From Methanospirillaceae archaeon (GTDB taxonomy: Archaea; Halobacteriota; Methanomicrobia; Methanomicrobiales; Methanospirillaceae): a stretch of 33,789 nt of DNA. The notes under the pieces are model-generated. The model saw nothing but the letters and a program-made list of their open reading frames with translations, was not told the DNA's origin and made no database searches. A program made the translations under genes and the position numbers. Location of the stretch: positions 1 to 33,789 of the forward strand of contig JAFGOM010000039.1 of the NCBI GenBank assembly GCA_016926505.1, in the 5' to 3' direction. Every line of letters begins with the position of its first letter. Positions within the stretch are counted from its first letter, which is position 1. Positions 285 through 15,051 of the stretch are shown here, in pieces.

Positions 285-1259
285 TCAATCATCTTTGATA
301 CATTCCTGACTATTTTGCCTCTTCTGATTCTGTTCTGATAAAATCGTATCAATATAAAAAGGAGGCCTGTTGTTAACCTCATAAAATAATCGTTGCAAAT
401 ACTCACCTAATATCCCAAAAGAAAATAGTAAAATGCCTGACAATAAACTCATTGCAACCATTAATGATGTCCAGCCTTCCAGTCCAATTTGTGGATACAG
501 CATCTTTTGAATAACTAAGTAGGAGGCAAAAATAAAACTAATAATACTGACAAATATTCCAATTATCCCAATAAACTGTAATGGTATTGAAGAGTGATTA
601 ATTGTTAGATCAAGAAATATCCTGAGATATTTTATCATTGAATAATTTGTCGTCCCATATTTTCTATTGTAATGGACCACATCAACATTCACGATTTTAT
701 TAGGATTTGTTGCATAGAGGATCAATGCATTGTATTGAATTCTCGAGGGATTCTGAGAAGATATCCGTTTAATTATTTTTTTCCGTATTGCGAAATAATC
801 TGATAATGTAATATTTTTTGGGACATGTAAAACAATATGCAATAGTTTTTGCATTATCCATGAACCTATCAAAAGCTTGGTTTTTTTATCAACTAATTTT
901 GCATAGACAACATCATACCCCATATTTATTTTAGCAATAAAGAGAGGGATATCTTCTGGAGCATGCTGAAGATCATCACAGATTACAATCACAATATCAT
1001 AATTGGAGTTTACTAGCCCACAGAATGTAGCGGCATGTTGCCCTGCATTTTTATCGAGATGTATTATTGTGATATTTGTATATTTTTCAAATAAATTTTG
1101 AAGGGCATTGTAACTATTATCAGTACTAGCATCATTTACAAAAATGATTTCATAAATATAATTATTATGCTCCATCACCTGGATAATACGTTCTGTTAAT
1201 TCGCTTAGGGAATTTTCAGAGTTATATACCGGGATTACTATAGATATTTGTTCAGTCAT
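285..1259 (-). CDS. GT2 family glycosyltransferase with C-terminal membrane anchor (polyprenyl-phosphate sugar transferase type)
   Basis: Predicted 324-residue enzyme of the DPM1/GtrB/ArnC-like GT2 group, which moves a sugar from a nucleotide donor to a lipid phosphate at the cytoplasmic face. The N-terminus has the GT-A signature VIPVYNSENSL. An acidic CDDLQ motif lies near residue 95 (metal and donor binding). Two strongly hydrophobic segments near residues 230-258 and 268-295 fit the paired C-terminal helices of this group. The ATG at 1259 is chosen over an upstream in-frame start at 1316. It puts the signature at the N-terminus, has a GGAG ribosome site, and overlaps the wbqC-like stop by 8 nt. 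It is the last gene of the minus-strand glycan operon. The sugar donor is not deducible. Confidence 0.88.
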   Translation of the reverse strand: MTEQISIVIPVYNSENSLSELTERIIQVMEHNNYIYEIIFVNDASTDNSYNALQNLFEKYTNITIIHLDKNAGQHAATFCGLVNSNYDIVIVICDDLQHAPEDIPLFIAKINMGYDVVYAKLVDKKTKLLIGSWIMQKLLHIVLHVPKNITLSDYFAIRKKIIKRISSQNPSRIQYNALILYATNPNKIVNVDVVHYNRKYGTTNYSMIKYLRIFLDLTINHSSIPLQFIGIIGIFVSIISFIFASYLVIQKMLYPQIGLEGWTSLMVAMSLLSGILLFSFGILGEYLQRLFYEVNNRPPFYIDTILSEQNQKRQNSQECIKDD

Positions 1260-1941
1260 TTCTCCAACCCCATATGTAATCCGGTGATTTCTCCCCACAA
1301 TTAAAAAGAAGATCAATTATTGACACATCATGTCTAAATTCTCCCCATAATTGAGAATATTTTGGATATCCTGAATAATCCTTGTAAACCAGGGAAATAT
1401 TTTCACAGGAAAACCTTTTTTCATTAATATAGGCTTGAGCAGCCGGACCAGACTGATAGGTATCTGCACCTAATTTGATGCAAATATCTATTAGTTTTTC
1501 GTCCTTACTACCTTCAGGATTCAATTCTAATGAGTTGACAAATTCTGTTTCAATGCCAAACAGTTCTGATAGTTTCCGGATAAGGATGATGTTTAAATTT
1601 GAAAGATATTTCTCCTCTTTTTTAAGAGTATCCATAATGTCATCTTTATAAGAATGATAATAGGGAGCAGACGCATAACTATGGTGGATTGATAAAACTA
1701 ATTTATCCCTCCAGTTTAAAGAATTATTAATTTCAGTTTCATTAATCGCCTGTAAATCTTTTTTTATCACTGGAATGGAAATCCATTTCAAACCATTTGG
1801 AGTCTTAATTTTATTCCGGTTTCTCCAGTCACGATGGGTATATTGTACGTCTTCGAGAAAAACAAATTTGTCAACATCATGAATAAAGTCAAAATATCCT
1901 TTCCATGGTAGAAAATTCGATTGAATTATACCAATTTTCAT
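1252..1941 (-). CDS. WbqC-like family protein
   Basis: The 229-residue product starts MKIGIIQSNFLPWKGYFDFI and continues with FLEDVQYTHRDWRNRNKIKTPNG, the conserved opening of the WbqC-like family. WbqC-like genes sit in bacterial O-antigen and capsule clusters, often next to aminotransferase and acyl-transfer genes; their biochemical role is not firmly established. It overlaps the upstream methyltransferase by 4 nt (ATGA) and the downstream glycosyltransferase by 8 nt, so it is translationally coupled to both. The length is full for the family and no damage is seen. By context it probably helps make or modify an amino-sugar residue of a surface glycan. Confidence 0.85.
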   Translation of the reverse strand: MKIGIIQSNFLPWKGYFDFIHDVDKFVFLEDVQYTHRDWRNRNKIKTPNGLKWISIPVIKKDLQAINETEINNSLNWRDKLVLSIHHSYASAPYYHSYKDDIMDTLKKEEKYLSNLNIILIRKLSELFGIETEFVNSLELNPEGSKDEKLIDICIKLGADTYQSGPAAQAYINEKRFSCENISLVYKDYSGYPKYSQLWGEFRHDVSIIDLLFNCGEKSPDYIWGWRND

Positions 1942-2693
1942 ATATTTTTGAAGTACTTGTGATGCTCGGGATATGTTTTTTTAATGAAATCTTCTTTGTA
2001 TATATATACAAAAAATTCAAATAATGGAAGATCATGGCGGATTGAGATAAATCGCGAGCAGTTTCTTAAGCACCATGTAATTATTTCTGCTGGATTTGCA
2101 TAGTATAAAGAAGAATCATAATAATCTGAGTTTGATGTGAGAAAATTAAATGCAATTCCTTTTTTAGCTAAAGTAAACATATTTTTAATACTTTTAAAAA
2201 TGAAATTCTCCCATTCATGTACAGAATTTTCTTCTTTAGTATGAAATGTTCCATTTAGGCAATAATAATCTACATCCATAAAAGAGAGAACAGAATCAGA
2301 TTTTTCTGATGCAATATTATCAAGAAAAAATTGTTTGTCTGGATATTTTTTTTTGTTATATTCAAGAAATTCAGGAACTATATCACTTCCAGAATAAAGG
2401 GCTTGGGGATACCGATGGGATAAATATTCCAAGTAATGTGCTAAACCACATCCCACCTCGTGGATACTGAATGGAATGTTGTTCTCATGTTTAAAAAGAT
2501 CAGATATTAGATTAAACCGTATCTCCTGTGTTTTCTCATCATTCCATGATAATGCTTTAGGAGAATCTCCATATCGTAAAAATTTATTGAGATAAAAGGT
2601 TTTTTGACTGTTTTCAATATCGTCCATTTCTCTAGTTGAATTTATTAGATATTTCAGCATATCCACAACCGGTTGATCCATAATTATTCCCAT
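1938..2693 (-). CDS. class I SAM-dependent methyltransferase
   Basis: About 250 residues. A motif-I glycine loop, HEVGCGLAHYLEYL, near residues 78-91 and an acidic SGSDIVP strand about 20 residues later are typical of Rossmann-fold SAM methyltransferases. The substrate is not visible; in a glycan operon a sugar or an acyl substituent is likely. Its start overlaps the end of the upstream propeller gene by about 62 nt if the ATG at 2693 is used, or 50 nt with the ATG at 2681. The second start has a closer GGGA ribosome site. This is an unusually long overlap for this locus. The 3' end overlaps the wbqC-like gene by 4 nt. Confidence 0.78.
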   Translation of the reverse strand: MGIIMDQPVVDMLKYLINSTREMDDIENSQKTFYLNKFLRYGDSPKALSWNDEKTQEIRFNLISDLFKHENNIPFSIHEVGCGLAHYLEYLSHRYPQALYSGSDIVPEFLEYNKKKYPDKQFFLDNIASEKSDSVLSFMDVDYYCLNGTFHTKEENSVHEWENFIFKSIKNMFTLAKKGIAFNFLTSNSDYYDSSLYYANPAEIITWCLRNCSRFISIRHDLPLFEFFVYIYKEDFIKKTYPEHHKYFKNI

Positions 2694-3582
2694 TATATAA
2701 AAGAAAAGTTTTTTCCTTATGAATTAGAATGCAACCGTAACATATCATCTGACTATCCCATCCTGTTTTTGATTTTTCAAGATTTAATTTGTTATCTTTG
2801 CGGTTCCATATGATTCCATCATTTGATACAGCATATCCCAGCCGATAAGTCATATTCCCTCCTCGAAATGAAAAAAACATATGATATTTACCCATTTCAT
2901 CTTTCCATACCATCGGACGGGCTATTGCGTATTCGTCATCATTAAAATCAATACAAGTATTATCATTAGTATTCCATGAAATACCATCTTTAGAGCTACT
3001 GTACTTTATTCGATAATAATGCTTAATATTAGTTGATATTAGGCTTCCTTTATTATCAGACACTAAATCACCATCCCAACCAGAACATGATACATACCAC
3101 ATTCTAAAAATATCATCTTCAACAATGATCCAGGGAGATGCAACCATGTATGGATCATAGAAATTTCTGTCTAATACTGGAGCTTGTGAATATCTATTAT
3201 AGGTTTTTCCATCATCATTACTTATTGCAAGTCCGATAAAAAAGGAGAAAGGAGTTAATTTTCGTTGTGTCCATCCTGTATAATATAAATATTTCAAATT
3301 ATTTATCTTTATTATGCAGGAGGGCATCACACCACAATCATCAAAGCAACCAAGTTTTCCTGGTGAAAGACTTGGGGTAGAATTAATGTGCAATAATTCC
3401 AAGTGATTACTAATTTTTACTATTGCGTATCCTCCATGTGCCCTATTATATTTATCACGCCCTGCAAAATGGACTCGAATTATATTATTTTCGATGATTT
3501 CTGGGAAAGGGTTTTGAGCATGTGTTACCATCCAAGGATAGGATCCTGGCGCTATAAGAAGGCCTTTTTTTTCCCAAATCAT
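2632..3582 (-). CDS. beta-propeller glycosidase-like protein (GH43/GH130-like fold)
   Basis: The 316-residue product has repeated propeller-like blades: a Trp/Tyr-rich strand followed by SNDDGKTYNR-type or SKDGISWN-type turns (residues about 110, 195 and 255). Such repeats are seen in five-bladed glycosidase-related proteins. No signal peptide is visible, so it is probably cytoplasmic. Proteins of this kind occur in polysaccharide biosynthesis clusters, where they may act as glycosidases, phosphorylases or transferases; the actual reaction cannot be read from sequence. It lies 15 nt after the acyltransferase gene in the same operon. Catalytic acids could not be assigned with confidence. Confidence 0.7.
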   Translation of the reverse strand: MIWEKKGLLIAPGSYPWMVTHAQNPFPEIIENNIIRVHFAGRDKYNRAHGGYAIVKISNHLELLHINSTPSLSPGKLGCFDDCGVMPSCIIKINNLKYLYYTGWTQRKLTPFSFFIGLAISNDDGKTYNRYSQAPVLDRNFYDPYMVASPWIIVEDDIFRMWYVSCSGWDGDLVSDNKGSLISTNIKHYYRIKYSSSKDGISWNTNDNTCIDFNDDEYAIARPMVWKDEMGKYHMFFSFRGGNMTYRLGYAVSNDGIIWNRKDNKLNLEKSKTGWDSQMICYGCILIHKEKTFLLYNGNNYGSTGCGYAEISNKFN

Positions 3583-3597
3583 ATTAATACATTTTGG

Positions 3598-4296
3598 TCA
3601 TGAGTTTTTCGATGAAATATCCATCATTCTTTCAAATTGGGCACTCGTTAGTGGATATTTTTTTGTATTCTCTACAACATATACTTCTTCATCTTTAGTT
3701 TTATGGGTAATTACGACTCCTGCCCCAATGATACAACGTGAACCAATTGATATATGATCACGGATAGCTGCATTAATCCCAATGAAAGTATTTTCACCGA
3801 TATCAACATTTCCTGATATCACTACTTGAGATGCAATATAACAATTATCTCCAATATTTACGTCATGTCCAATATGATTACCACTCCATAGAAATACATT
3901 ATTTCCAATTTTAACATTGGGTTGAATTACCTGATTTTCCAGAATAAAACAATTTTCCCCGATTTTCAAGTCATTCCAAGCAATACAAGTTGAACTAATG
4001 TAGCTTACTAAGTGATAACCTTTGGATTTTGCTTCAGAATATTTTTTTGTTCTTATTTCATTTAACTTTGAATAACCAATAGCAATAAACATCTGATAGT
4101 TATCAGGGGAGTAAGAATCTGTTACATTATCAAAGGGTACAACAGGTAAATTATGAAATGTTGATTCAGTTATGTAATTATTATCAACCGTGAATGCGAC
4201 TGGATTGTAAATACTATCATGTAAAAAATACATATAAGCGAGGGATGCCATCTTTCCATTCCCGAAAATAATAATCTCTTGTTTTTTACATTCCAT
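3598..4296 (-). CDS. NeuD/PglD-like sugar O/N-acyltransferase (left-handed beta-helix)
   Basis: The 232-residue product has the two-domain layout of sialic-acid NeuD and bacillosamine PglD enzymes. An N-terminal Rossmann-like domain (IIIFGNGKMASLA, residues 8-20) is followed by hexapeptide repeats from about residue 110 to 205 (IGENCFI, IGNNVFL, IGDNCYI, IGENTFIG, IGSRCIIGAG). HIGHD at residues 141-145 matches the position of the catalytic histidine of PglD. These enzymes usually use acetyl-CoA. With wecE in the same locus, the 4-amino group of dTDP-4-amino-4,6-dideoxygalactose is a likely acceptor. The ACP genes upstream raise the possibility of an acyl-ACP donor, which is inference. Confidence 0.85.
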   Translation of the reverse strand: MECKKQEIIIFGNGKMASLAYMYFLHDSIYNPVAFTVDNNYITESTFHNLPVVPFDNVTDSYSPDNYQMFIAIGYSKLNEIRTKKYSEAKSKGYHLVSYISSTCIAWNDLKIGENCFILENQVIQPNVKIGNNVFLWSGNHIGHDVNIGDNCYIASQVVISGNVDIGENTFIGINAAIRDHISIGSRCIIGAGVVITHKTKDEEVYVVENTKKYPLTSAQFERMMDISSKNS

Positions 4297-4318
4297 CTAA
4301 AAACCACCTTTTTTATTA

Positions 4319-5092
4319 TCAGATTTTACATTTTATAAGATAATTAATACCCATTTCTGAATGGAAAAACAGTCTTTGACAAAGAAGGAATGGATACATT
4401 GCTTTCCTATTTAAAAATAATTTAAACATTTTTGGAAATACAGTTTTGTATGGGATTTCACGGACCCCGCTTCCTTTAGTCTGCTCTATTTTTGAGCAAT
4501 TCAATTTATTCTTCTCCATACTTTTAATGATTGTCAGATTTGATAATTTTAGTATTGCGTTACATAATGGCACTCCAATTGAAAAGATATCAAAAATAGA
4601 AATATCACATTTCTTAAATAAATTTATGAGATCGGTTTTTTCATATCGCCGTAAATGCCCTACAGTATCATCTTCAATCCCCCACTTATCGCTTTGAGCA
4701 GGAACAGCGAATAATAGATATCCACCAGGACGAACCCTCTTCTTTAGCAATCGTAAGAACTTTTCATCATCTTCGATATGTTCCATAGTAAAAAAACTTA
4801 TAACCAAATCAAAATTATGTCCTATATCAGTAGTATCAAAAAAATCCCCTTGGATAAGTTTATATTTCCCATCTTTGATATAATCATCCAACAATGCTTG
4901 AGATCTCTGAATTGCAAGGGGGGAGAAATCTATTCCTACTCCTTTCATGCCTTTCTGAAGTGCTATTTGAGAATTTTCACCTCCACCACAACCCACGTCA
5001 AGAAAATTATTGACATTAATATCACGGAGGATCTTTTCATACACATCATTAAAACAGATTGTTCCAGGAGGATTCATTTTAATAAAATTCAT
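4319..5092 (-). CDS. class I SAM-dependent methyltransferase
   Basis: About 257 residues. Motif I is FLDVGCGGGENSQIAL (about residues 31-46). GIDFSP provides the acidic SAM-ribose strand, and DLVISFFTMEHIEDD and RPGGYLLFAVPAQ are the usual post-I motifs. This resembles UbiE/UbiG-type enzymes acting on small molecules or carrier-bound acyl groups. I place the start at the ATG at 5092, which overlaps the acpS stop as ATGA. A TTG at 5101 has better spacing to a GGAGGAG ribosome site and is a real alternative. Directly following acpS, it may methylate the ACP-bound unit or the final sugar; the substrate is unknown. Confidence 0.8.
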   Translation of the reverse strand: MNFIKMNPPGTICFNDVYEKILRDINVNNFLDVGCGGGENSQIALQKGMKGVGIDFSPLAIQRSQALLDDYIKDGKYKLIQGDFFDTTDIGHNFDLVISFFTMEHIEDDEKFLRLLKKRVRPGGYLLFAVPAQSDKWGIEDDTVGHLRRYEKTDLINLFKKCDISIFDIFSIGVPLCNAILKLSNLTIIKSMEKNKLNCSKIEQTKGSGVREIPYKTVFPKMFKLFLNRKAMYPFLLCQRLFFHSEMGINYLIKCKI

Positions 5093-5469
5093 TTCCAACA
5101 ACTCTCCTCCAATGCCTTAAGGAATTGGCTCTCCATGACAAGTGCACAAGCTACAGCCACTGAATTATTATGTGAAATACTGATTTGAACAGAATATTCT
5201 TTATGTATGTACTCTGGAATGATAACTTGTGGCATTCCTTTTTCAGTATTGATAATTTCAATATCCAGTAAGGATAACTGGATATCATAATTAAAAAAAG
5301 CTTTAATTATCGACTCCTTAGCACAAAATTTTCCGGCCAGATGATGACTCTGTGGACTTTTATCTTTACAATATTCAATCTCCCGATAGGTAAATATCTT
5401 CTGCAATAATTGCTCATCCAGACTCTCAAAGCGACTTACCTCTTCACTATCAATGCCAATGTGAAACAT
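5089..5469 (-). CDS. acpS: holo-[acyl-carrier-protein] synthase (phosphopantetheinyl transferase)
   Basis: The 126-residue product has both AcpS signatures: GIDSEEVSRF at residues 5-14, with the Mg-binding Asp7, and KFCAKESIIKAF at residues 47-58, with the second metal ligand Glu52. The length is the usual one for AcpS-type transferases. It would attach 4'-phosphopantetheine from CoA to Ser34 of the ACP encoded two genes upstream. The start codon shares one nucleotide with the stop of the FabG-like gene (TAATG), so the two are tightly coupled. Most archaea lack an ACP system; finding a dedicated AcpS beside its ACP suggests import from bacteria as a functional unit. Confidence 0.9.
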   Translation of the reverse strand: MFHIGIDSEEVSRFESLDEQLLQKIFTYREIEYCKDKSPQSHHLAGKFCAKESIIKAFFNYDIQLSLLDIEIINTEKGMPQVIIPEYIHKEYSVQISISHNNSVAVACALVMESQFLKALEESCWK

Positions 5470-6215
5470 TACAGGATTACTCCACCGTCTAGTTCTAGTG
5501 TTTTACCATTAAAGTAATCATTGGCGATAATAAATAAAATCCCTGATGCAATCTCATCAGGTTCTGCCAGACGTTTGATCGGAATTCTTTTAGCCCATTC
5601 CTGAGTTATTTTCTCCCCCATGGCTTTAATTGCTGAATCAGTATTCGTAAACCCCGGAGCGATGCAGGCTACCCTTATTCCAAATCCATTCAATTCCTTT
5701 GCCCAGGTTTTAGTTAGTGCAGCGACACCGGCTTTTGCTGCAGCATAAGCTGACTGGCCTGGATTCCCTTGAGCACTAATTGAACTGACATTGACGATCA
5801 GTCCCTTGGTTCTTTTCTGAATCATTTTTTCGACAACATGCGAAGAAACAATGAAAACTGAATTTAGATTAACATCGATAACCTGTTTCCACAGTTCATA
5901 CTTATGTCGTTCTAATTTCCTACTCAAGGAAATGAGAGGGCTATCTCTGATAATACCTGCATTATTGATAAGGATATCAATTCTTCCTCTGGAAGAAAAA
6001 AATTCTTCTACTGCCTGACTTACACTTGCCTCATCACAGATATTACAATTTTTAACATAAACCGATGGAAACTGGTTATGAAGAGAATCAAGAGCCGGTT
6101 GATCTACATCAAGAACTCCCACTTCTGCACCAGATTCAACTAAATGATGCACAAGGCAACGTCCTATTCCATTTGCTCCACCGGTTATTAATACCGTTTT
6201 CTCCGGAATATCCAT
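5469..6215 (-). CDS. short-chain dehydrogenase/reductase, FabG-like (3-oxoacyl-ACP reductase type)
   Basis: The 248-residue classical SDR has TGGANGIG at 11-18 (dinucleotide binding), NNAG at 84-87, VSSIS around Ser144/145 and YAAAK with Tyr157 and Lys161 (catalytic tetrad), and ends with LELDGGVIL as FabG proteins do. An extra stretch of about 10 residues after NNAG (DSPLISLSRKLERHK) is longer than in housekeeping FabG. Position between the ACP gene and acpS suggests that it reduces or oxidises an ACP-bound acyl group rather than a free sugar. A strong AAGGAG ribosome site precedes the ATG at 6215. Confidence 0.87.
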   Translation of the reverse strand: MDIPEKTVLITGGANGIGRCLVHHLVESGAEVGVLDVDQPALDSLHNQFPSVYVKNCNICDEASVSQAVEEFFSSRGRIDILINNAGIIRDSPLISLSRKLERHKYELWKQVIDVNLNSVFIVSSHVVEKMIQKRTKGLIVNVSSISAQGNPGQSAYAAAKAGVAALTKTWAKELNGFGIRVACIAPGFTNTDSAIKAMGEKITQEWAKRIPIKRLAEPDEIASGILFIIANDYFNGKTLELDGGVIL

Positions 6216-6255
6216 ACAATCTCTCCTTTATCCATTCTTCCATTTTAAACTAAAT

Positions 6256-6483
6256 TCACTTAATTTTTTCAGATATTGTTTTTACTATAGCCTTAAAATT
6301 TGTCATCTCAACCATCTCATCCGCTTGTAAAAGAATTCCGAACTCGCTTTCTAATGCAAACATTAATTGGATATGCTTAAGCGAATCCCAGTTTTCAACT
6401 GTATCCATTGATGAATTATCAGATATTTCCGTGACTGGCATTTCAAAAACCACTGCCATTATTTGTATTAATTTATCCTGCAT
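6256..6483 (-). CDS. acyl carrier protein
   Basis: The 75-residue acidic protein has the ACP signature DSLKHIQL at residues 33-40. Ser34 is the predicted phosphopantetheine attachment site, and the rest is predicted helical. The length and the positions of the four helices match discrete type II ACPs. It begins 4 nt after the stop of the fkbH-like gene and lies 40 nt before the reductase gene. No ketosynthase or malonyl transferase is nearby, so this is not a fatty-acid synthase. It more likely holds a short acyl group loaded by the FkbH-like protein. Archaeal ACPs are rare, which makes the acpS partner in the same operon informative. Confidence 0.92.
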   Translation of the reverse strand: MQDKLIQIMAVVFEMPVTEISDNSSMDTVENWDSLKHIQLMFALESEFGILLQADEMVEMTNFKAIVKTISEKIK

Positions 6484-6487
6484 GATA

Positions 6488-8326
6488 TCAACACCGGACT
6501 ACTTTTTTAAAAAAACCTGGATAATTGGGGTATATATTCTTGAGATCAAACTCAAATCTCCTTTCATTCTCAATGTTAGCATTATCATTTCGTTCAGAAT
6601 CATGAAAAGAGTGCCGGAGGTAAAAGTCACTTACCTGACTATTCTTTTTTGTTGGTATATATGTACCTCTGACCTTTGTGCATCCGTTCAATCGTGCTGT
6701 CTCAATACAATCCCATAGTAATACGTCTTCAATTGCACGACCAATAACTCTGCAACTTAATAGGAATGTATCAATTATTCCAATTTTTTCAATAATTTTT
6801 AAAATATAGAGGCCTACAATGCCTTGTGATCCAAATTTATCTGATACACTCATAGTTCTAATGATAATATCTGAAGAATTCATAAAATACCTGATTTCAG
6901 ATTCTGAATATCTTTTCGTTGTCAGGTTAAATTGATTGGTTTTCTGCGTCAATTGAGAAGCCCGGGGAATAATCAGTTCATCCACATTTTTTATATTAAT
7001 TTCCATTTCCAATGAATTTAAGTATTCATCCAGATTAGTAATGGAAGTACGGGATTTATCCCTCATTATGTCTGATGCGTACATTTTGTTGCGTTCTCTA
7101 TCTTCATGAGAATAGGTGAGTGTATCGAATAGTCCAGAAATGAATAAAAGATCACGGAAAAATGTTCCTTCAAGAATATCCCCTGCTAATAGTGTTACTA
7201 CCTCCGGGATCTGATAGGTAACCTGCGATATTTCATGAATATTATCATCAATAAAAACTATGCTTTCTAGACCAATGTTTAGCTCTGAAGCAATTTCTTT
7301 TATATTAGTTACTTTATCATTCCAGTTAATTTTCATAACCAGAAAATGCTCCTTTTTGAGAGCCATTCCTGGATGTCTCTCAAATACCTCTATTACATCT
7401 TCTTCATTATTTTTGCTGGCAATAGCAAGCATAATCCCTTTATTGTATAAATTGAGTATAGATTTTTGAAAATCGAGGTATTTTATTCCTGGGTATTCTT
7501 CTCCAATCTCAATGTTGGCTAAACCGTCCTCACCAATTATACCTCCCCAAAGGGTATTATCACAATCCAGAATTAAACATTTTTTTGTTTTTCCTTTTAG
7601 AGTTAAAATAAATTTTAAATATTCACTTGCTATCCAGGCTAGAGCGGTTTGAGAATAAGGATTCTTATATAGATAGTACATTCTGCTATCAAACATTGAT
7701 AATGATCCAATTGTTGATTGCAATTTCTCAATATCAAAGATGTATACTCCAGAATGTGAATTTACAATCTGGATGAGATCAGAATTTAATTTTCTTATGG
7801 TATTACATTGAAGGCATGGTAGGGAATTATCGCATATCCCAAAAAACGGAAAAGTGGGTGATGAAAAGTTATGAAACAGAATAGTTCCTTTACTCCGTTG
7901 AACCAGTTCTTTTATGATATTATTGCAATTCAAAAGTATTGAATCAACCTTTTTTTTTCTTTCAATTTCTGTTAAGGAAATATATTGAGTACATAATTCA
8001 TCATTAAGATGGTCTAATATTTGACTGACAATGATAAGATCATAATCGATATTTCTATTCAATATCTCTTCAGCAAAAATATCCTGAAATATACCATTAT
8101 ATGTTCCTGTTGTAATCAATGGAGTTATCCCGTTTTTATAACATAAGTATTCCAGAAAGGGGATAATTGGTTCTGTCGTATAATTTCGAAGAAAAAGAAT
8201 CCTGATTGACAATTCATTCCTGGATTCTTTCTTCATAGAATGAATTAAAGGAAGTATCTTTTGAAGTTTTAAATCTCCAGGAAATAGCATATTCGCTGCT
8301 TGTTTTTCTCTCATTTCAGGTTCCAT
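6488..8326 (-). CDS. FkbH-like HAD-superfamily protein with C-terminal GNAT-like domain
   Basis: The 612-residue product has three parts. An N-terminal region to about residue 240 resembles the SGNH-like extension of long FkbH proteins. A HAD-IIIC domain starts at LILDCDNTLWGG (Asp254 and Asp256). A C-terminal GNAT-like region covers about residues 445-600. In FK520-type polyketide pathways FkbH takes glycerate from 1,3-bisphosphoglycerate and loads a glyceryl unit on an ACP. The ACP gene follows 4 nt later, which fits the same chemistry here. It lies 30 nt after the radical SAM gene in one operon. Which acyl unit is loaded is inferred, not shown. Confidence 0.88.
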   Translation of the reverse strand: MEPEMREKQAANMLFPGDLKLQKILPLIHSMKKESRNELSIRILFLRNYTTEPIIPFLEYLCYKNGITPLITTGTYNGIFQDIFAEEILNRNIDYDLIIVSQILDHLNDELCTQYISLTEIERKKKVDSILLNCNNIIKELVQRSKGTILFHNFSSPTFPFFGICDNSLPCLQCNTIRKLNSDLIQIVNSHSGVYIFDIEKLQSTIGSLSMFDSRMYYLYKNPYSQTALAWIASEYLKFILTLKGKTKKCLILDCDNTLWGGIIGEDGLANIEIGEEYPGIKYLDFQKSILNLYNKGIMLAIASKNNEEDVIEVFERHPGMALKKEHFLVMKINWNDKVTNIKEIASELNIGLESIVFIDDNIHEISQVTYQIPEVVTLLAGDILEGTFFRDLLFISGLFDTLTYSHEDRERNKMYASDIMRDKSRTSITNLDEYLNSLEMEINIKNVDELIIPRASQLTQKTNQFNLTTKRYSESEIRYFMNSSDIIIRTMSVSDKFGSQGIVGLYILKIIEKIGIIDTFLLSCRVIGRAIEDVLLWDCIETARLNGCTKVRGTYIPTKKNSQVSDFYLRHSFHDSERNDNANIENERRFEFDLKNIYPNYPGFFKKVVRC

Positions 8327-8356
8327 TACAAAAAAATCCGATTTTAATTTGAAAAT

Positions 8357-9934
8357 CTAATAAGAAAATTCTTTGTTGATATCCATATACTCAATGAGAT
8401 ATTGAGAAGGAATTTCTGAAAAAACCTTTCCGTTCCAGTATTCATCATCAACCCAGAGATTTTGAATGAACTCTGTCGATTCTAATCTCGAATCAGTCTC
8501 TATCTGCACATAAAATTTTTTTAGATATCTTTCAAGACTTAAATCTGATTTTTCCCATGATTTATAGAATCGATCTCTTAATGGTGAATTTATGATACGA
8601 AATAGTAATCCACTCAATTTACATGCCAGAATCATCTCTTCCTTGGTCATTGAAGATGTGGATAATATGAAATGGGGAGATCCTGATGAATAAGAAAGAT
8701 TGAATTTACACTTAAGTTTTTCCAAATCTGAGCCAGGTAATACCTGCAGGCGGTGAATATTAAGGATATGATCAGTGTCTTTAAAGAATGGAATTATTTT
8801 ATCAAGTCCGGTCATAAAGGACAAGTATGTTTCACCCGGTAGACCAAGTATGATGTCGAGTTTTATAACCAGGTTATTCTTATTAATCTCGTGCATAAAC
8901 GAACAAAACCGACTCCAATCTGTTTTGGGGCGCCCTACATTTCTTAATGCCTCCGGATTGAATGATTGGAGTCCGATACAATTTATTGCGATATAATCCT
9001 GAAGCATATCTGAATATAACTGGGCACGGTCTTTTGGGAGCAGATTCGAGGAATTGGATATTTTTTCTCGATCTTTTAACAGTGAAACCAAATATAGAAA
9101 TTCATTATCAACACTGTCATACGTGTACTCCCAATAGATCCAGGGAATGTGATGTCCTCTTGTTTTTAATTTGTGTAAATGCTTCACGATTTTTTTTGCT
9201 CGCGATAAATCTGAAGTGAAAATTGCATCAAAAATTCGGAGTGCAGTAATTTTTTTTTCGCAAATCAAAAAATCTAATTCTTGAAGCACTCTCTCTATTG
9301 AATAATATGATATTTGTCTGATATTTTTATGATACACACAATATTTACAACGGTATTTGCACCCTCTTTGAGTTTCTATAAACGCCTGTTGATATGCATA
9401 TAATCTATCTTCTATTATATTGTTAACGTATATTGATGGGATAATATCTAGATCTTTGATAGTTGTCAGATTAGATTCATATTCAATGTTACCATCCTTT
9501 AAATACGCAACTCCAGGTGGAAGGATTATATCGCCCTTTTCGATACTTATTATCAGATTACTGAACTTTTCCTCTCCTTCCCCGATAATATAAAAAACAT
9601 TTTCCTGGGAACAATTCAAATTTGATAATCTTTCAATAGTTATTTCAGGCCCTCCAAAAATGTGGATTAATTCACTTTCGGCAAGAGATGTAAGTGTTTC
9701 AAATATTTGATCAATTAATGAGATATTCCATACATAACAACTATAACTGATAATATCAGGGGCCAATTTTTTTATTTCTGTAATAATCTGATCAGGTTTT
9801 AATGCATCTGGAAAATTTAAAATTTTAGTTTCATGGTTTGATGATTGTGAGAGATATCCCTTGAGAAGATAAGAAGACAATAAGTATCTTGCCATGGTGT
9901 TTTGAGGATAGATGTTTAAAAAGAGGATTTTCAT
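8357..9934 (-). CDS. B12-binding-domain radical SAM protein
   Basis: The 525-residue product begins with a cobalamin-binding-type Rossmann region (KILFLNIYPQNT, then HIFGGPEITIERL near residue 92). A radical SAM core follows with the [4Fe-4S] motif C192-x3-C196-x2-C199 and a KLDIILGLPGET strand near residue 360. Class B enzymes of this kind perform methylations or ring rearrangements on unactivated carbons. A canonical DxHxxG B12 ligand is not seen, as in many BchE-like members. It is first in the string that leads to the ACP genes, after about 100 bp of noncoding DNA. It may C-methylate or rearrange the sugar or the carrier-bound acyl unit; the substrate is unknown. Confidence 0.83.
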   Translation of the reverse strand: MKILFLNIYPQNTMARYLLSSYLLKGYLSQSSNHETKILNFPDALKPDQIITEIKKLAPDIISYSCYVWNISLIDQIFETLTSLAESELIHIFGGPEITIERLSNLNCSQENVFYIIGEGEEKFSNLIISIEKGDIILPPGVAYLKDGNIEYESNLTTIKDLDIIPSIYVNNIIEDRLYAYQQAFIETQRGCKYRCKYCVYHKNIRQISYYSIERVLQELDFLICEKKITALRIFDAIFTSDLSRAKKIVKHLHKLKTRGHHIPWIYWEYTYDSVDNEFLYLVSLLKDREKISNSSNLLPKDRAQLYSDMLQDYIAINCIGLQSFNPEALRNVGRPKTDWSRFCSFMHEINKNNLVIKLDIILGLPGETYLSFMTGLDKIIPFFKDTDHILNIHRLQVLPGSDLEKLKCKFNLSYSSGSPHFILSTSSMTKEEMILACKLSGLLFRIINSPLRDRFYKSWEKSDLSLERYLKKFYVQIETDSRLESTEFIQNLWVDDEYWNGKVFSEIPSQYLIEYMDINKEFSY

Positions 9935-10037: not shown

Positions 10038-11195
10038 TCATAAAAAATTAGTCACAATTTTCTCAAATATTGATATTACATAGTTAATTTCTTTAGAATT
10101 CATCCCTGAATAGATTGGAAAACGCAAAATCCGTCGACTTATCTCGTCTGTGATGGGAATTGATGTTTGATCTCCTCTTTCTTTCTTGCCTTGTGGTGAT
10201 GAATGTAATGGCATATAATGAAAAACAGCATGGATTTTATCTTTTTTTAACCTGTCCATGATGATGTCTCTTACTATTAGATCCCGGAATAAAATATAAA
10301 AAATATGGGCATTATGTTCGGCGTAATCGGGGATTACCGGTAACCTGATCATACCCGACTCCTCAAAAGGTTTTAGCTGAGTATAATAATCATTCCATAT
10401 CTCCATCCTCCTCTGGTTCATCTCATCCATTGCTTCAAGCTGAGCGTACAAAAACGCTGCTAATATATCACTTTGCACATAACTGGATCCGACATCCACC
10501 CAGGTATACTTATCAACCTGACCACGGTGAAACTTACTCCGGTCAGTTCCTTTCTCCCGTATAATCTCAGCCCGTTCAATCAGTTCCTGGTCATCGCGGT
10601 TGATAACGAGGGCTCCTCCCTCACCACAGGTAATATTCTTTGTTTCATGGAAACTATAGCACCCAAAATCCCCTATAGTCCCAAGATGTCTCTCCTTGTA
10701 TCTCGCCCCGACTCCTTGGGCAGCATCTTCCACAACCCATAAACCATGCCTCTTCGCAATCGACATGATCTCATCCATGGCACAGGAAACACCTGCGTAA
10801 TGGACCGAGTAAATAGCCTTTGTCCGTGGGGTTATTGCCTCTTCTATCTTTGTCGGATCGATATTGAGTGTATCCGGGTCGATATCCACAAAAACTGGCC
10901 TTCCTCTAGCAATTACTACCGGGTTCGCGGTGGAAACAAAGGTGAAGGAAGGCATGATCACTTCATCTCCGGGCTGTATATTAATGAGACGAGTAGCCAT
11001 CTCAAGGGCACTCGTACATGATGTAGTAAGAAGAACCTTACGTGCCACGAACTTCTCCTCCATTAATTGTTCGCACTTCTTTCCGTAAGGTCCGTCACCA
11101 CTTATTTGTGCTCCGTTCTGGATATTTGCCAGGATATCGTTGATATATTTTTGTTCATTTCCGGTTAGATAAGGACGTGCAAAAGGAATTTTCAT
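10038..11195 (-). CDS. wecE: dTDP-4-amino-4,6-dideoxygalactose transaminase (WecE/RffA type)
   Basis: The 385-residue PLP enzyme of the DegT/DnrJ/EryC1/StrS family has VVEDAAQ with Asp157 contacting the PLP ring and SFHETKNITCGEGGAL with Lys186 as the Schiff-base lysine. The FHETKN motif is typical of WecE/RffA, which aminates dTDP-4-keto-6-deoxyglucose to dTDP-4-amino-4,6-dideoxygalactose using glutamate. The partners rmlA and rmlB are in the same operon; rmlC and rmlD are absent from the window, so the 4-keto intermediate is more likely to flow to the amino sugar than to rhamnose. It overlaps rmlA by 4 nt. Base composition is richer in G+C than the genes that follow it. Confidence 0.88.
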   Translation of the reverse strand: MKIPFARPYLTGNEQKYINDILANIQNGAQISGDGPYGKKCEQLMEEKFVARKVLLTTSCTSALEMATRLINIQPGDEVIMPSFTFVSTANPVVIARGRPVFVDIDPDTLNIDPTKIEEAITPRTKAIYSVHYAGVSCAMDEIMSIAKRHGLWVVEDAAQGVGARYKERHLGTIGDFGCYSFHETKNITCGEGGALVINRDDQELIERAEIIREKGTDRSKFHRGQVDKYTWVDVGSSYVQSDILAAFLYAQLEAMDEMNQRRMEIWNDYYTQLKPFEESGMIRLPVIPDYAEHNAHIFYILFRDLIVRDIIMDRLKKDKIHAVFHYMPLHSSPQGKKERGDQTSIPITDEISRRILRFPIYSGMNSKEINYVISIFEKIVTNFL

Positions 11196-11932
11196 AAAGA
11201 ATTCTCTATTATATTATCCCGTGAGAGCATAAGCTCATTTGCATATACCAGGGATTCAAATGTTCCGGCATCAGTCCAGTCTCCCTCAATGAAATCATAG
11301 GTCATCGTATTCTGTTCCACGTACCAGTTGTTGACGGAGGTGATCTCAAGTTCTCCACGTGCAGAGGGTCTGAGACTCTGAATTACATCAAACACATGAG
11401 AATCATACATATACACCCCGATTACTGCATAATCGCTTTTAGGGGTTTCCGGTTTTTCTTCAATCTGTATGATCATTTTGTTCCGCTCATCCAGCGCCGC
11501 CACACCGAACCGTTCCGGATCTCCAACGCGTTTTAACAAAATCTTCGCACCAATAGATTGTTTCTTGAAAGTGTCCACATATTTCCGGATACTATGCGTG
11601 AGGATATTATCTCCAAGAATGACGACAAGCCTGTCGCCATTTGCAAATACATTCGCAAGCGCAAGGGCATCTGCAATTCCTCCTGCTTTCTCCTGCACCC
11701 TGAATGTAAAATTGCAATCAAAATCAGAGCCACTTCCAAGCAATCGGACAATTTCTCCCATGTGATCTTTTCCGGTAACAACAAGGATATCAGTAATCCC
11801 CGCAGAGAGTAATTGCCGAATAGGATTGAAGATCATCGGTTCTTTTCCTACAGGTAGTAGATGCTTATTTGTCACCTTGGTGAGAGGGTATAACCGCGTA
11901 CCGGTTCCACCCGCGAGTATGACACCTTTCAT
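11192..11932 (-). CDS. rmlA: glucose-1-phosphate thymidylyltransferase
   Basis: The 246-residue nucleotidyltransferase starts MKGVILAGGTGTRLYPLT, the RmlA/RfbA signature with the catalytic loop at residues 8-18, followed by the NKHLLPVGKEPMI and ILGDNIL motifs and EGDWTDAGTFESL near the C-terminus. It joins dTTP and glucose-1-phosphate to give dTDP-glucose for RmlB. It is shorter than the common roughly 290-residue enterobacterial enzymes, missing part of the C-terminal allosteric region, as in many archaeal copies. An AAGGAG ribosome site precedes the ATG. It lies 4 nt after the methyltransferase gene and overlaps wecE by 4 nt. Confidence 0.9.
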   Translation of the reverse strand: MKGVILAGGTGTRLYPLTKVTNKHLLPVGKEPMIFNPIRQLLSAGITDILVVTGKDHMGEIVRLLGSGSDFDCNFTFRVQEKAGGIADALALANVFANGDRLVVILGDNILTHSIRKYVDTFKKQSIGAKILLKRVGDPERFGVAALDERNKMIIQIEEKPETPKSDYAVIGVYMYDSHVFDVIQSLRPSARGELEITSVNNWYVEQNTMTYDFIEGDWTDAGTFESLVYANELMLSRDNIIENSL

Positions 11933-11936
11933 GGCA

Positions 11937-12845
11937 TCACGGCTCCTTTACTGCAATACAGAGTAAACTGCTACCGAATGGCAAGGCGATTGTATTAATA
12001 AGGGGCACTTCCAAGCTGAAAATAAGAAAAAACATGGAATTAATGATTCCATTGGGCTGCAATTCACTCATGGCATCTTTTTGAATCTGCTTCTTAACAT
12101 TCTCATCATTCATATTCCCTGTTCGCAATGATATTTTTCGTGCGAGAAGAATGAACGGATAGAGGAGTGTCATAAAATAACTTATTTTTTTCACCTTAAA
12201 TCCATTATCTTCAATTTTTTCTCGCAATTCCTGTAGAGAATATCTTCGCTTGTGTTCCGCATAGATATCCATCGCAGACCACAAATGTCGATCAGCCGGA
12301 ACTGTAATAAAAAGAATGCCATCCGGTTTCAGAGCGGCATGCATATTTTTCAGGATGGCGACATCATCATTAATATGCTCAAGGACATCAAAAGCACAAA
12401 TTGCGTCAAATTCTTCAATAAAAATCTGGTCTGACAGATTACATTGGTAGTAATAATCTCCCGCATCCCTCTCCTTACAGAATCGTAGCGCAGCAAAAAA
12501 CAGATCTGCGCACTCAACATGATATCCCATTTTTTTCAGGTACCGTGAAACATATCCGGTACCGCATCCTACTTCTAGAATACACGACTGCAAAGATAAG
12601 TATCGGGTAATTACATTTCCGATGATTTTGTTCCGGACCTTGAACCAGAAATTTTTTTCTTCTGACTGATACAAAATTTCAAACCCATTATCGGGAAAGT
12701 ACTGCTCTTCGTGAAGCGTATTTCCGGTTAATTGAATTATCCCGTCTTTACTCGAATACGTTTTGCCGCAATTCTGACAGAGATACTGCATAGCTTCCCT
12801 CAACAATGGATTTTTACATATGGGGCAGAGGAGCAATAAAATCAC
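11937..12845 (-). CDS. SAM-dependent methyltransferase with N-terminal zinc ribbon
   Basis: The 302-residue product starts at a GTG that overlaps the rmlB stop (GTGA). Four cysteines in two CxxC pairs (C7/C10 and C23/C26) form a Trm112-like zinc ribbon. A class I methyltransferase domain follows with ILEVGCGTGYVSRYL, FDAICAFDVLEHI and LKPDGILFITVPAD. The C-terminal part carries hydrophobic stretches (MTLLYPFILLA and MFFLIFSLEVPLINTIALPFG) that could touch the membrane or a lipid-linked substrate. Location between rmlB and rmlA points to methylation of a dTDP-derived sugar or a lipid-linked glycan; the target atom cannot be predicted. Confidence 0.8.
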   Translation of the reverse strand: MILLLLCPICKNPLLREAMQYLCQNCGKTYSSKDGIIQLTGNTLHEEQYFPDNGFEILYQSEEKNFWFKVRNKIIGNVITRYLSLQSCILEVGCGTGYVSRYLKKMGYHVECADLFFAALRFCKERDAGDYYYQCNLSDQIFIEEFDAICAFDVLEHINDDVAILKNMHAALKPDGILFITVPADRHLWSAMDIYAEHKRRYSLQELREKIEDNGFKVKKISYFMTLLYPFILLARKISLRTGNMNDENVKKQIQKDAMSELQPNGIINSMFFLIFSLEVPLINTIALPFGSSLLCIAVKEP

Positions 12846-13891
12846 AACTGAAAACTATTACCATACAAATTCTGGTAATACAAGAAATAGTCTTTTGTAA
12901 TTATTGAATTCAACCAATCAGGGTGTAAAAGATACCACCTGATAGTATTTATCATTCCGGATTCAAAGGAAATAGATGGTTTCCAATGCAGTTCTTTTTG
13001 GATTTTATTTGAATTAATTGCATAGCGCTGATCGTGGCCTTTACGATCTTTGACATAGGAAATAAGGTCATCTGAAACCTTCAAATCCTGATGTAAATCT
13101 GTAATAATCTGAATGATCAATTTCACAATCTCAATATTGGATCGTTCATTATTTGCACCAACATTGTAGATCTCTCCAGGAATACCTTTATGGAGAACCA
13201 GATCGATCGCAGCACAATGATCGTCCACATGGATCCAGTCCCGGATATTCAGACCATCCCCATATATTGGAATTTTTTTCCCGCTTAGGCAGTTGAGAAT
13301 TGTAAGGGGGATCAATTTCTCTGGGAATTGATATGGGCCATAGTTGTTTGAACTCCGAGTGATATTTATCGGCAGATTGAATGTGTGAAAATATGCCTGT
13401 GTCAGCAAATCAGCGCTGGCTTTGCTTGCAGAGTATGGGCTGCGGGGATCAAGTGACGTGGTTTCTGTGAATGCACCCGTTTTTCCAAGTGAACCATAGA
13501 CTTCATCGGTGGAGATCTGGAGATATTTTTTTACACCCTGTTTTAATGAAACCTCCAATAAGTTCAGAACTCCCAAAACATTCGACGTAAAAAAAATATT
13601 CGGATTGAGGATGCTTCGGTCAACATGTGACTCTGCTGCAAAATTGATTATGTAATCCATGTGAAATTGATCGAATGCATTTTCAATATTTTTTTTATCG
13701 CAAATGTCCCCTCTGAAAAAAATATAACGTGGATCCTTTTCAATATCGGATAAATTATTGAGATTTCCGGCATAAGTCAACTTATCAAAATTGATAATTC
13801 TAATATCTTGATAACGGTTTAAGAGATAGCGGATGAAGTTACTACCGATAAAACCTGCGCCACCGGTTACGAAATAGTTATTAAGAGTCAT
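12842..13891 (-). CDS. rmlB: dTDP-glucose 4,6-dehydratase
   Basis: The 349-residue extended SDR has TGGAGFIGS near residue 9 (NAD binding), the dehydratase signature STDEVYG (127-133, with Asp and Glu acting in water elimination) and YSASK (Tyr153 and Lys157). It converts dTDP-glucose to dTDP-4-keto-6-deoxyglucose. The ATG at 13891 is preferred. An in-frame TTG at 13903 would run into the remnant of the upstream ABC ATPase. No good ribosome site is seen for either. The gene therefore sits directly at the broken edge of the old transport gene, which suggests that the dTDP module was joined here by recombination. Confidence 0.92.
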   Translation of the reverse strand: MTLNNYFVTGGAGFIGSNFIRYLLNRYQDIRIINFDKLTYAGNLNNLSDIEKDPRYIFFRGDICDKKNIENAFDQFHMDYIINFAAESHVDRSILNPNIFFTSNVLGVLNLLEVSLKQGVKKYLQISTDEVYGSLGKTGAFTETTSLDPRSPYSASKASADLLTQAYFHTFNLPINITRSSNNYGPYQFPEKLIPLTILNCLSGKKIPIYGDGLNIRDWIHVDDHCAAIDLVLHKGIPGEIYNVGANNERSNIEIVKLIIQIITDLHQDLKVSDDLISYVKDRKGHDQRYAINSNKIQKELHWKPSISFESGMINTIRWYLLHPDWLNSIITKDYFLYYQNLYGNSFQL

Positions 13892-13901
13892 TTTTTGATT
13901 C

Positions 13902-14190
13902 AATTAGAAATGTTATTCTAGATCCATTGCGACCCGATGATGCACACAATTTCTCCTGATCTATCATAGAATGTGAAATTCCTTGATGCACAAAACCATC
14001 ACATCATTGATATATTTAAATGTTCATGATGGATTGCATCTTTCTTGGCGTCGGGATCATCTCTTCCCCTAAATCGTGCCCATTTGCTCTGTAGATCGTG
14101 GGATAAAGTTTTATGACCAATTACTCCCAGCTGGTACTCTTTGGATACATGCTCCACTCTGATAACTACATCATCCATAATACACCCCAC
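13902..14190 (-). pseudogene. decayed Wzt-like ABC transporter ATPase (5' remnant)
   Basis: The first 63 codons, from a GTG at 14190 (or ATG at 14178), read VVIRVEHVSKEYQLG and FRGRDDPDA. This is the normal start of O-antigen/teichoic-acid export ATPases. A TGA at 13999-14001 stops it. Beyond the stop the same frame continues with recognisable SGEIVCIIG at 13933-13959. After a one-base frameshift at 13932 it continues with RNGSRITFLI at 13902-13931, which is a damaged Walker A loop (compare RNGSGKSTLLKI). The remaining two thirds of the ATPase is gone and rmlB begins. Stop, frameshift, lost Gly-Lys-Ser and truncation together mark a dead gene. The intact permease lies 3 nt upstream. Confidence 0.85.
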
Positions 14191-14193
14191 TGA

Positions 14194-15051
14194 CTAAACC
14201 GTATCCATAAATGTCTTTTCAACACGACTAAAAAACATAATACCAACTATCAGAATCAATACTGTCACTCCCGCACTCAAAATAAGCATCCAGGGCTGAA
14301 TCGCCCCACTTCCTAAAAATGCATACCGAAATGTCTCAATTATGGCAGTCATAGGATTAAATGCAAAGAGCCATTGCCATTTTAGTGGAATTTGAGATAG
14401 TGGGTAGACTATGGGTGTTGCATACATCCAGAGCTGGACACCAAATCCGAGCGCCATTGCCAGATCCCGATATTTTGTTGTCATACTTGAGATAAGAATA
14501 CCCATACCAAGTCCAAGGGTCGCCATTTGAACCAGAAGAAACGGTGTAAGTAGTACCCAGACTGTAGGATGAATGGGAGCTCCCACAAGAAAAAAATAGA
14601 GAATGAATGCCAGAAACATCCCAAATTGAATAAAAAAAGTGAGCAGATTCGTTATCACAACAGATATGGGAACTACAAGCCGAGGGAAATATACTTTGCC
14701 AAATATCCCGGCATTGGAAATGAACGTATTAGAGGTCTGGGTCATACAACTCGCAAAATAAGCCCAGCAAACAGTACCTGACATATAGAACAACATCGGA
14801 GGAAGTCCATCTGTTGGGATTTTTGCAATATTACTAAATATCACGGTAAAAACGATGGTGGTGAACAGAGGTTGTATTAAAAACCAAATCGGGCCAAGAA
14901 TTGTTTGTTTATAAACTGCAACAAAATCACGACGAACAAAGAGAAAGATGAGATCCCGATAACGCCAGAGTTCTGCAAGGTCTATGTTAAACCAACCACA
15001 TTGTGGACGGATTTCCATGGTCCAGATAACATCATCCTTATTAGTTCTCAA
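14194..15051 (-). CDS. ABC-2 type polysaccharide export permease (Wzm-like)
   Basis: The 285-residue membrane protein starts with a cytoplasmic amphipathic lead (GWFNIDLAELWRYRDLIFLFVRRDF) and YKQTILGPIWFLIQP, the hallmark of Wzm/TagG-family permeases. About six hydrophobic helices follow. With a Wzt ATPase such permeases move finished lipid-linked glycans across the membrane. I favour the TTG at 15051 because GAGG lies 7 nt upstream and the WxxxIxPxxGWF stretch is then complete; ATG at 15018 is the alternative. Its ATPase partner immediately downstream is a pseudogene, so the permease either works with an ATPase encoded elsewhere or is itself on the way out. No damage is seen in the permease. 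Confidence 0.9.
   Translation of the reverse strand: MRTNKDDVIWTMEIRPQCGWFNIDLAELWRYRDLIFLFVRRDFVAVYKQTILGPIWFLIQPLFTTIVFTVIFSNIAKIPTDGLPPMLFYMSGTVCWAYFASCMTQTSNTFISNAGIFGKVYFPRLVVPISVVITNLLTFFIQFGMFLAFILYFFLVGAPIHPTVWVLLTPFLLVQMATLGLGMGILISSMTTKYRDLAMALGFGVQLWMYATPIVYPLSQIPLKWQWLFAFNPMTAIIETFRYAFLGSGAIQPWMLILSAGVTVLILIVGIMFFSRVEKTFMDTV

Follow-up and report, generated by a model that had tools for sequence, protein, structure and literature searches.

In the viosamine island of P. syringae (vioA, vioB, vioR, vioS, acp and vioM), the proposed pathway leads to dTDP-N-(3-hydroxy-1-oxobutyl)-2-O-methylviosamine for flagellin (PMC3927599). The flagellin of C. jejuni bears di-O-methylglyceroyl-pseudaminic acid (PMC3068675), and the flagellar glycosylation locus of this bacterium contains cj1302, a gene with an FkbH domain (PMC7099621). 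FkbH proteins are also part of the methoxymalonyl-/glyceryl-acyl carrier protein (ACP) pathway of polyketide synthesis (FkbH, RkD, Mad7/Mad14; PMC7489565). For archaea, a review by Lombard and co-authors reported ACP and its processing enzymes in only a few unrelated lineages, which acquired them by transfer from bacteria (PMC3533463). Here we analyzed a stretch of 33,789 nucleotides (nt) from a Methanospirillaceae archaeon (assembly GCA_016926505.1, contig JAFGOM010000039.1), termed the window, in which an FkbH protein, an ACP, a short-chain dehydrogenase/reductase (SDR) and an AcpS-type phosphopantetheinyl transferase (PPTase) are encoded inside a dTDP-amino-sugar locus. These genes probably form an acyl-ACP cassette dedicated to a glycan, in which a glyceryl unit would be loaded by FkbH, edited by the SDR and moved by a NeuD-type acyltransferase to the amino sugar made by WecE.

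The window has in common with the viosamine island a sugar 4-aminotransferase, a NeuD/VioB-type N-acyltransferase, an ACP, a FabG-like reductase and a methyltransferase in one locus. The two systems differ in the origin of the acyl unit: the viosamine island starts it with VioS, a 3-oxoacyl-ACP synthase III, whereas the window has FkbH in this place and no ketosynthase III as acyl source was found among its scanned open reading frames (ORFs). The window also has AcpS and a B12-binding radical S-adenosylmethionine (SAM) protein in addition, and an archaeal host. With the methoxymalonyl-ACP pathway it shares an FkbH gene adjoining a stand-alone ACP, with a dehydrogenase and a methyltransferase nearby. 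A Pfam scan of the 30 window ORFs revealed no ketosynthase, as the initial annotation had stated, and neither an FkbI-type acyl-CoA dehydrogenase nor an FkbK-type dehydrogenase; an SDR stands instead of the latter, and the setting is that of a dTDP-amino sugar. As the further dehydrogenases and a polyketide synthase (PKS) are absent from the scanned ORFs, the locus does not belong to that pathway. The C. jejuni locus resembles the window in having an FkbH-domain gene within a surface glycan locus, and its glycan bears methylated glyceric acid; the sugar, unlike that of the window, is a nonulosonic acid.

The source genome is that of a methanogen (2.94 Mb in 121 contigs), and Fwd genes and an Eha-type hydrogenase lie on the same contig as the cassette. 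Fifteen genes run along the minus strand from position 13903 to 285 with short gaps or overlaps (widest gap 103 nt), in the order RmlB, methyltransferase, RmlA, WecE, B12 radical SAM, FkbH, ACP, SDR, AcpS, methyltransferase, NeuD, glycoside hydrolase (GH)-like, methyltransferase-like, WbqC and glycosyltransferase family 2 (GT2). The cassette is therefore preceded by the dTDP-sugar genes RmlB, RmlA and WecE, and has the NeuD/PglD-type N-acyltransferase on its far side. The genes named earlier in the segment 4319-9934 were all found at their place on the minus strand and their families are backed by profile matches, yet six genes and not five are present (B12 radical SAM, FkbH, ACP, SDR, AcpS and methyltransferase). 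Their close packing, given as gaps of 4-40 nt or overlaps, was confirmed with gaps of 30 nt between the radical SAM and FkbH genes, 4 nt between FkbH and ACP and 40 nt between ACP and SDR, and overlaps of 1 nt (SDR-AcpS) and 13 nt (AcpS-methyltransferase). Since the contig begins at the GT2 gene, the locus may be longer. Two STT3/AglB-type matches, relevant to a possible attachment of the glycan to the archaellum or S-layer, were found in the genome.

FkbH matched TIGR01686 with 308 bits, for a curated cut-off of 146.65. The HAD motifs DxDxT, S, K and DD and the conserved C-terminal cysteine are all intact, and residues D254, D256, T258, S304, K338, D360, D361 and C525 are invariant across 22 aligned FkbH proteins of archaea and bacteria. 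From knowledge of the family, we take D254 to be the phosphatase nucleophile and C525 the acyl acceptor. Considering the family function together with the intact motifs, glyceryl loading is the best reading for this protein. The ACP matched PF00550 with 25.3 bits (cut-off 20.8) and carries the motif D33-S34-L35, Ser34 lying within ENWDSL. AcpS matched PF01648 with 55.7 bits (cut-off 25) and fell marginally below the cut-off of TIGR00516 (59.2 bits against 59.8); its GxD and KE motifs are present as GID at residue 5 and AKES at residue 50. The cassette ACP is the sole match to PF00550 in the whole genome and the cassette AcpS the sole match to PF01648. With a lone ACP, a lone PPTase and no ketosynthase in the scanned window ORFs, it is unlikely that the ACP serves to build fatty acid or polyketide chains. 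Furthermore, a chance grouping is unrealistic as both single matches lie here and as FkbH scored over cut-off in 1 of the 232 genomes of the order, that of the window (all counts and E-values rest on genomes chosen as species representatives, not all of which are complete).

In the mechanism that we propose, AcpS would turn the ACP into its holo form. FkbH would then dephosphorylate D-1,3-bisphosphoglycerate, which is available to methanogens via gluconeogenesis, and, via Cys525, charge the ACP with a glyceryl (2,3-dihydroxypropanoyl) unit. The FabG-like SDR would edit the ACP-bound thioester by a redox step, and the NeuD/PglD-type acyltransferase would transfer the acyl group to the dTDP-4-amino-4,6-dideoxyhexose produced by RmlA, RmlB and WecE, with the ACP as donor and the 4-amino group as acceptor. 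The methyltransferase at 4319-5101 and the CysS-like radical SAM protein may methylate either the acyl unit or the sugar. In this scheme the 1,3-bisphosphoglycerate substrate, the acyl acceptor role of Cys525, the acyl-ACP donor for NeuD and the amine acceptor made by WecE are inferred from family knowledge. Candidates for the final acyl group are glyceroyl, lactoyl, 3-hydroxypropanoyl or an O-methylated form; in a window without MaoC, glyceroyl or a derivative of it is the simpler prediction.

The cassette could be related to the amino sugar by comparison with G819, a finished, single-contig genome of the same family (loci L165 and L196). The order in G819 is RmlB-methyltransferase-RmlA-WecE, then AcpS-ACP-AMP ligase-LuxE-LuxC-SDR, an insertion with other genes, and finally NeuD-WbqC-GT2. 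The shared proteins are 57% (RmlB), 40% (methyltransferase), 72% (RmlA), 80% (WecE), 49% (NeuD), 60% (WbqC) and 41% (GT2) identical to those of the window. As the flanks are colinear and the middle differs, the window appears as the same locus in which the acyl cassette has been exchanged, and the position of the exchanged cassette between the shared WecE and NeuD genes ties the ACP to N-acylation of the WecE amino sugar. The initial annotation had proposed a carrier-bound acyl group decorating an amino sugar; this idea is strengthened by the presence of WecE and a PglD-type N-acyltransferase in the run and by G819, where WecE, NeuD, WbqC and GT2 are retained on the flanks of an ACP cassette of another type.

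The survey of the 232 genomes of the order extended this comparison. A PPTase was present in 46 genomes. Of the 35 PPTase loci fetched, 25 contained a recognisable AcpS-type enzyme and 17 an ACP; the earlier remark that most archaea have no ACP system thus understates the situation in this order, and the results suggest that PPTases are not rare within it, many being in sugar loci. Thirteen of the 35 loci are arranged as AcpS-ACP-AMP ligase-LuxE-LuxC, in nearly every case along with a FabG-like SDR; FkbH is missing from all 35. Cassettes of this type (L164, L165 and others) share with the window the position between WecE and NeuD and the ACP, AcpS and SDR parts; they set up the acyl group by means of the ligase, LuxE and LuxC, whereas the window would do so with FkbH. 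A NeuD or left-handed beta-helix (LbH) acyltransferase was found in 9 further fetched loci bearing the LuxE/LuxC cassette. The methyltransferase of the sugar backbone is conserved with 40-47% identity in the syntenic loci L165 and L164. Among the 13 loci, which fall within L143-L177 (e.g. L164:4528-9816), some adjoin WecE and some adjoin hexapeptide acyltransferases. The conserved cassette resembles genes of enterobacterial flagellin islands, for which the flagellar glycosylation islands of Enterobacteriaceae served as comparison (PMC4875605).

The enzymes predicted to act on the acyl unit and on the sugar were analyzed by their closest relatives. The best matches of NeuD in the PDB are perosamine N-acetyltransferase and PglD, which are N-acyltransferases with nucleotide-linked 4-amino sugars as acceptors; LpxA and LpxD, both dependent on acyl-ACP, belong to the same fold family as NeuD. 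The best PDB matches of the SDR are 3-oxoacyl-ACP reductases, and its best NCBIfam model, PRK08217, gave 258 bits, under the cut-off of 298. The radical SAM protein combines the B12-binding and Radical_SAM domains with the CxxxCxxC motif (CKYRCKYC, residue 192), as do B12-dependent radical SAM methyltransferases. CysS is its best PDB relative (99 bits), followed by TokK, and it scored 102 bits against the KedN5 family, below the cut-off; it is likely a C-methyltransferase. Its relatives within the order do not exceed 38% identity over short stretches. The possibility that it is a diol dehydratase resembling AprD4 was retained as a weak rival, with a PDB match of 24 bits versus 99 for CysS. From its sequence, the methyltransferase at 4319-5101 may target either the acyl group or the sugar. 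Earlier, the acyl group had been suggested to be possibly reduced and methylated; no MaoC was found in the genome, and both methyl-transfer enzymes could instead modify the sugar.

Several observations weigh against the proposed mechanism. Acyl-CoA is the donor for NeuD/PglD enzymes of known mechanism. FabG reduces 3-oxoacyl groups, and there is no obvious reaction for the SDR on glyceryl-ACP: a 3-oxo group would first need a dehydration or an oxidation, and no enzyme was identified for this step, with no match to PF01575 (MaoC) anywhere in the genome. The SDR is also only 22-26% identical to the MaoC-adjacent SDRs of other FkbH loci, compared to mostly 28-34% for the SDRs of LuxE/LuxC cassettes. 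Finally, the gene shown to be necessary in C. jejuni is cj1295, and the link between FkbH and the glyceroyl group is unproved in this organism (PMC7099621, PMC3068675). A full-text literature search turned up no paper joining FkbH, glycan and ACP, and none of the 35 FkbH papers listed, judged by title, concerned archaea.

FkbH cassettes were also found in other archaea; FkbH exceeded the cut-off in 21 of 300 genomes of Nitrososphaeria and in 6 of 279 from the phylum of a woesearchaeote. Of the 27 archaeal FkbH loci inspected (two of them short contigs), 26 had a match to the ACP profile, 25 had AcpS and 24 a hexapeptide acyltransferase. Counts with iterative profiles of WbqC and the methyltransferase MT3 were set aside because these profiles drifted to unrelated families, and those with the SDR profile because it also picked up sugar epimerases. 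Their usual order is FkbH-ACP-MaoC-AcpS, divergent from the hexapeptide acyltransferase and mostly with a polysaccharide deacetylase, and RmlA/RmlB lie nearby. The slot after the ACP is occupied by MaoC in 21 of the 27 loci; in five Nitrososphaeria loci (L007, 3597-4001; L009, L060, L061 and L065) a VOC protein (glyoxalase_4), which might epimerise the alpha carbon, stands instead of MaoC between ACP and AcpS, and an additional SDR was found in L068, L069, L093 and L094. Because MaoC, VOC and SDR proteins are all able to act on acyl thioesters, this position appears to be a tailoring slot. These operons share with the window FkbH, ACP, a tailoring enzyme, AcpS and a hexapeptide acyltransferase in sugar loci; they differ from it in that MaoC or VOC fills the tailoring slot and their FkbH proteins form a separate clade. 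In the survey for co-occurring families suggested earlier, FkbH, ACP and AcpS recur together in both groups, and the remaining place is taken by MaoC, VOC or SDR.

In a maximum-likelihood tree, the other archaeal FkbH proteins (the long-branched L092 aside) formed one clade with a support of 100/99 and the FkbH of the window fell outside it. Kinship with the Nitrososphaeria/woesearchaeote clade was rejected on this ground, and the cassette was probably recruited separately. The bacterial comparison set came from plasmid and phage-collection records and the branches of the tree are long. A truncated VOC copy lies at L073:9687-9890, and in the bacterial loci L101, L102 and L178 VOC genes are likewise close to FkbH-ACP genes. 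In most Nitrososphaeria loci, the FkbH operon is divergent from a polysaccharide deacetylase gene with DUF3473 (L072:9817-11191); by analogy, a deacetylation followed by acyl-ACP-dependent N-acylation would resemble the logic of rhizobial NodB/NodA.

These loci bear on a second explanation, in which the glyceryl unit is deoxygenated before transfer, by the radical SAM protein acting like a diol dehydratase or by another dehydration, so that the SDR would reduce an oxo thioester and the sugar would receive a lactoyl or 3-hydroxypropanoyl group; in the relatives, MaoC would carry out the dehydration. The frequent MaoC after the ACP and the SDRs added in four archaeal loci are consistent with it. 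MaoC::SDR fusions also adjoin FkbH in an archaeal locus (L092:9127-10818) and in Niveispirillum and Erwinia plasmids (L100:10544-11992 and L181:7260-8654), the Niveispirillum order being FkbH-ACP-WcbI-MaoC::SDR, which suggests that the unit loaded by FkbH is dehydrated and reduced in succession. In the MaoC-bearing relatives, dehydration and reduction of glyceryl-ACP would give lactyl. The loading module of bryostatin BryA makes a lactyl starter with FkbH, dehydratase and ketoreductase domains. The window itself joins FkbH to an SDR and to a radical SAM protein with a weak match to AprD4. However, no MaoC was found in the genome, so that the FkbH-MaoC-SDR route is not simply copied here; two C-methyltransferases, CysS and TokK, are much nearer relatives of the radical SAM protein than AprD4 is, and the SDR is distant from those linked to MaoC. 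Combined, these results make a deoxygenated acyl group unlikely here, while leaving it some credit.

The ACP unit might alternatively serve O-acylation of a glycan or another small molecule, with NeuD acting separately and using acetyl-CoA. Bacterial FkbH-ACP loci often adjoin MBOAT O-acyltransferases or WcbI, or ketosynthase III and PKS genes. In contrast, neither MBOAT, ketosynthase nor PKS was found among the scanned window ORFs, and NeuD is retained at the ACP cassette in G819 and accompanies the LuxE/LuxC cassette, itself or as an LbH acyltransferase, in the 9 other loci mentioned above; we regard this explanation as improbable. A chimeric assembly or bacterial contamination is very improbable in spite of the abrupt GC change from 0.42 to about 0.32 between the WecE and radical SAM genes and of the absence of FkbH from every other genome tested in the order, as the window has no N bases, the genes on either side of the GC step are colinear in G819, which has a comparable low-GC stretch, NeuD, the GH-like gene and WbqC occur together in another genome (G765, locus L199) and the contamination of the genome is given as 0.55%. 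The GC content at third codon positions is 0.22-0.32 for the genes 285-9934, 0.38-0.43 from WecE to RmlB and 0.56-0.62 for the core Fwd/Eha genes; these steps fit a stepwise acquisition of the locus.

The putative glyceryl cassette and its relatives in other archaeal sugar loci indicate that archaea may use ACPs for sugar decoration. A broader proposal, which we consider evenly balanced between right and wrong, is that archaeal ACPs often serve the acylation of surface glycans through an exchangeable cassette: RmlA/RmlB/WecE, a hexapeptide acyltransferase and ACP-AcpS would be constant, whereas the front end (FkbH or ligase-LuxE-LuxC) and the tailoring enzyme (SDR, MaoC or VOC) would be interchangeable. 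If so, exchanging one cassette for another would yield a different acyl group, and with it a different surface chemistry, with the remaining locus unchanged. Archaeal lipids are isoprenoid, and if the reading of the window given here is right, decoration of surface sugars would be part of the answer to the role of ACPs in archaea. On this reading, amino sugars with hydroxyacyl groups (glyceroyl or lactoyl) would be expected at the surface of archaea, some ammonia oxidisers among them. The window offers a testable case, having a single ACP, PPTase and FkbH, and the sister locus with its different cassette is a natural control.

Table 1. Genes of the amino-sugar locus and acyl cassette, in the order of the minus-strand run.
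Feature	Coordinates	Strand	Profile or structural support
RmlB, dTDP-glucose 4,6-dehydratase	12842..13903	-	TIGR01181 468 bits, cut-off 365
Methyltransferase of the conserved sugar backbone	11937..12845	-	PF13489
RmlA-like glucose-1-phosphate thymidylyltransferase	11192..11932	-	TIGR01208 237 bits, below cut-off 320
WecE, dTDP-4-amino-4,6-dideoxygalactose transaminase, predicted source of the amine acceptor	10038..11195	-	PRK11706 569 bits, cut-off 375; PDB 4piw 422 bits
B12-binding radical SAM protein, accessory to the cassette	8357..9934	-	PF02310 36 bits and PF04055 45 bits, both over cut-off
FkbH-family acyl-ACP loading enzyme (HAD-IIIC phosphatase and transferase), 612 aa	6488..8326	-	TIGR01686; FkbH_N PF21211; PDB relative 3slr
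Acyl carrier protein, 75 aa, phosphopantetheine site Ser34	6256..6483	-	PF00550
FabG-like SDR, putative tailoring enzyme of the cassette	5469..6215	-	PRK08217; Y157xxxK161 intact
AcpS-type phosphopantetheinyl transferase	5089..5469	-	PF01648
SAM methyltransferase	4319..5101	-	PF13489 64.6 bits
Sugar N-acyltransferase of the NeuD/PglD/VioB family (left-handed beta-helix), predicted to use acyl-ACP	3598..4296	-	TIGR03570 191 bits, cut-off 161
WbqC-like protein, conserved locus end	1252..1941	-	PF08889 259 bits
Glycosyltransferase family 2, conserved after WbqC	285..1316	-	PF00535

Other genes were noted in and around the run. An AAA_14/DUF4143 ATPase is encoded at 16776-18077 (minus strand), between the Fwd genes and the sugar locus. 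The sugar locus also has an ABC-2 type membrane exporter subunit at 14194-15051 (minus strand), for which no ATP-binding partner was seen among the neighbouring ORFs scanned. The GH-like protein at 2632-3582 (minus strand) weakly matches beta-1,2-mannobiose phosphorylase (30 bits) and its gene overlaps the next ORF by 62 nt. A relative with 43% identity (L199:8097-8981, genome G765) accompanies NeuD and WbqC in another methanogen.

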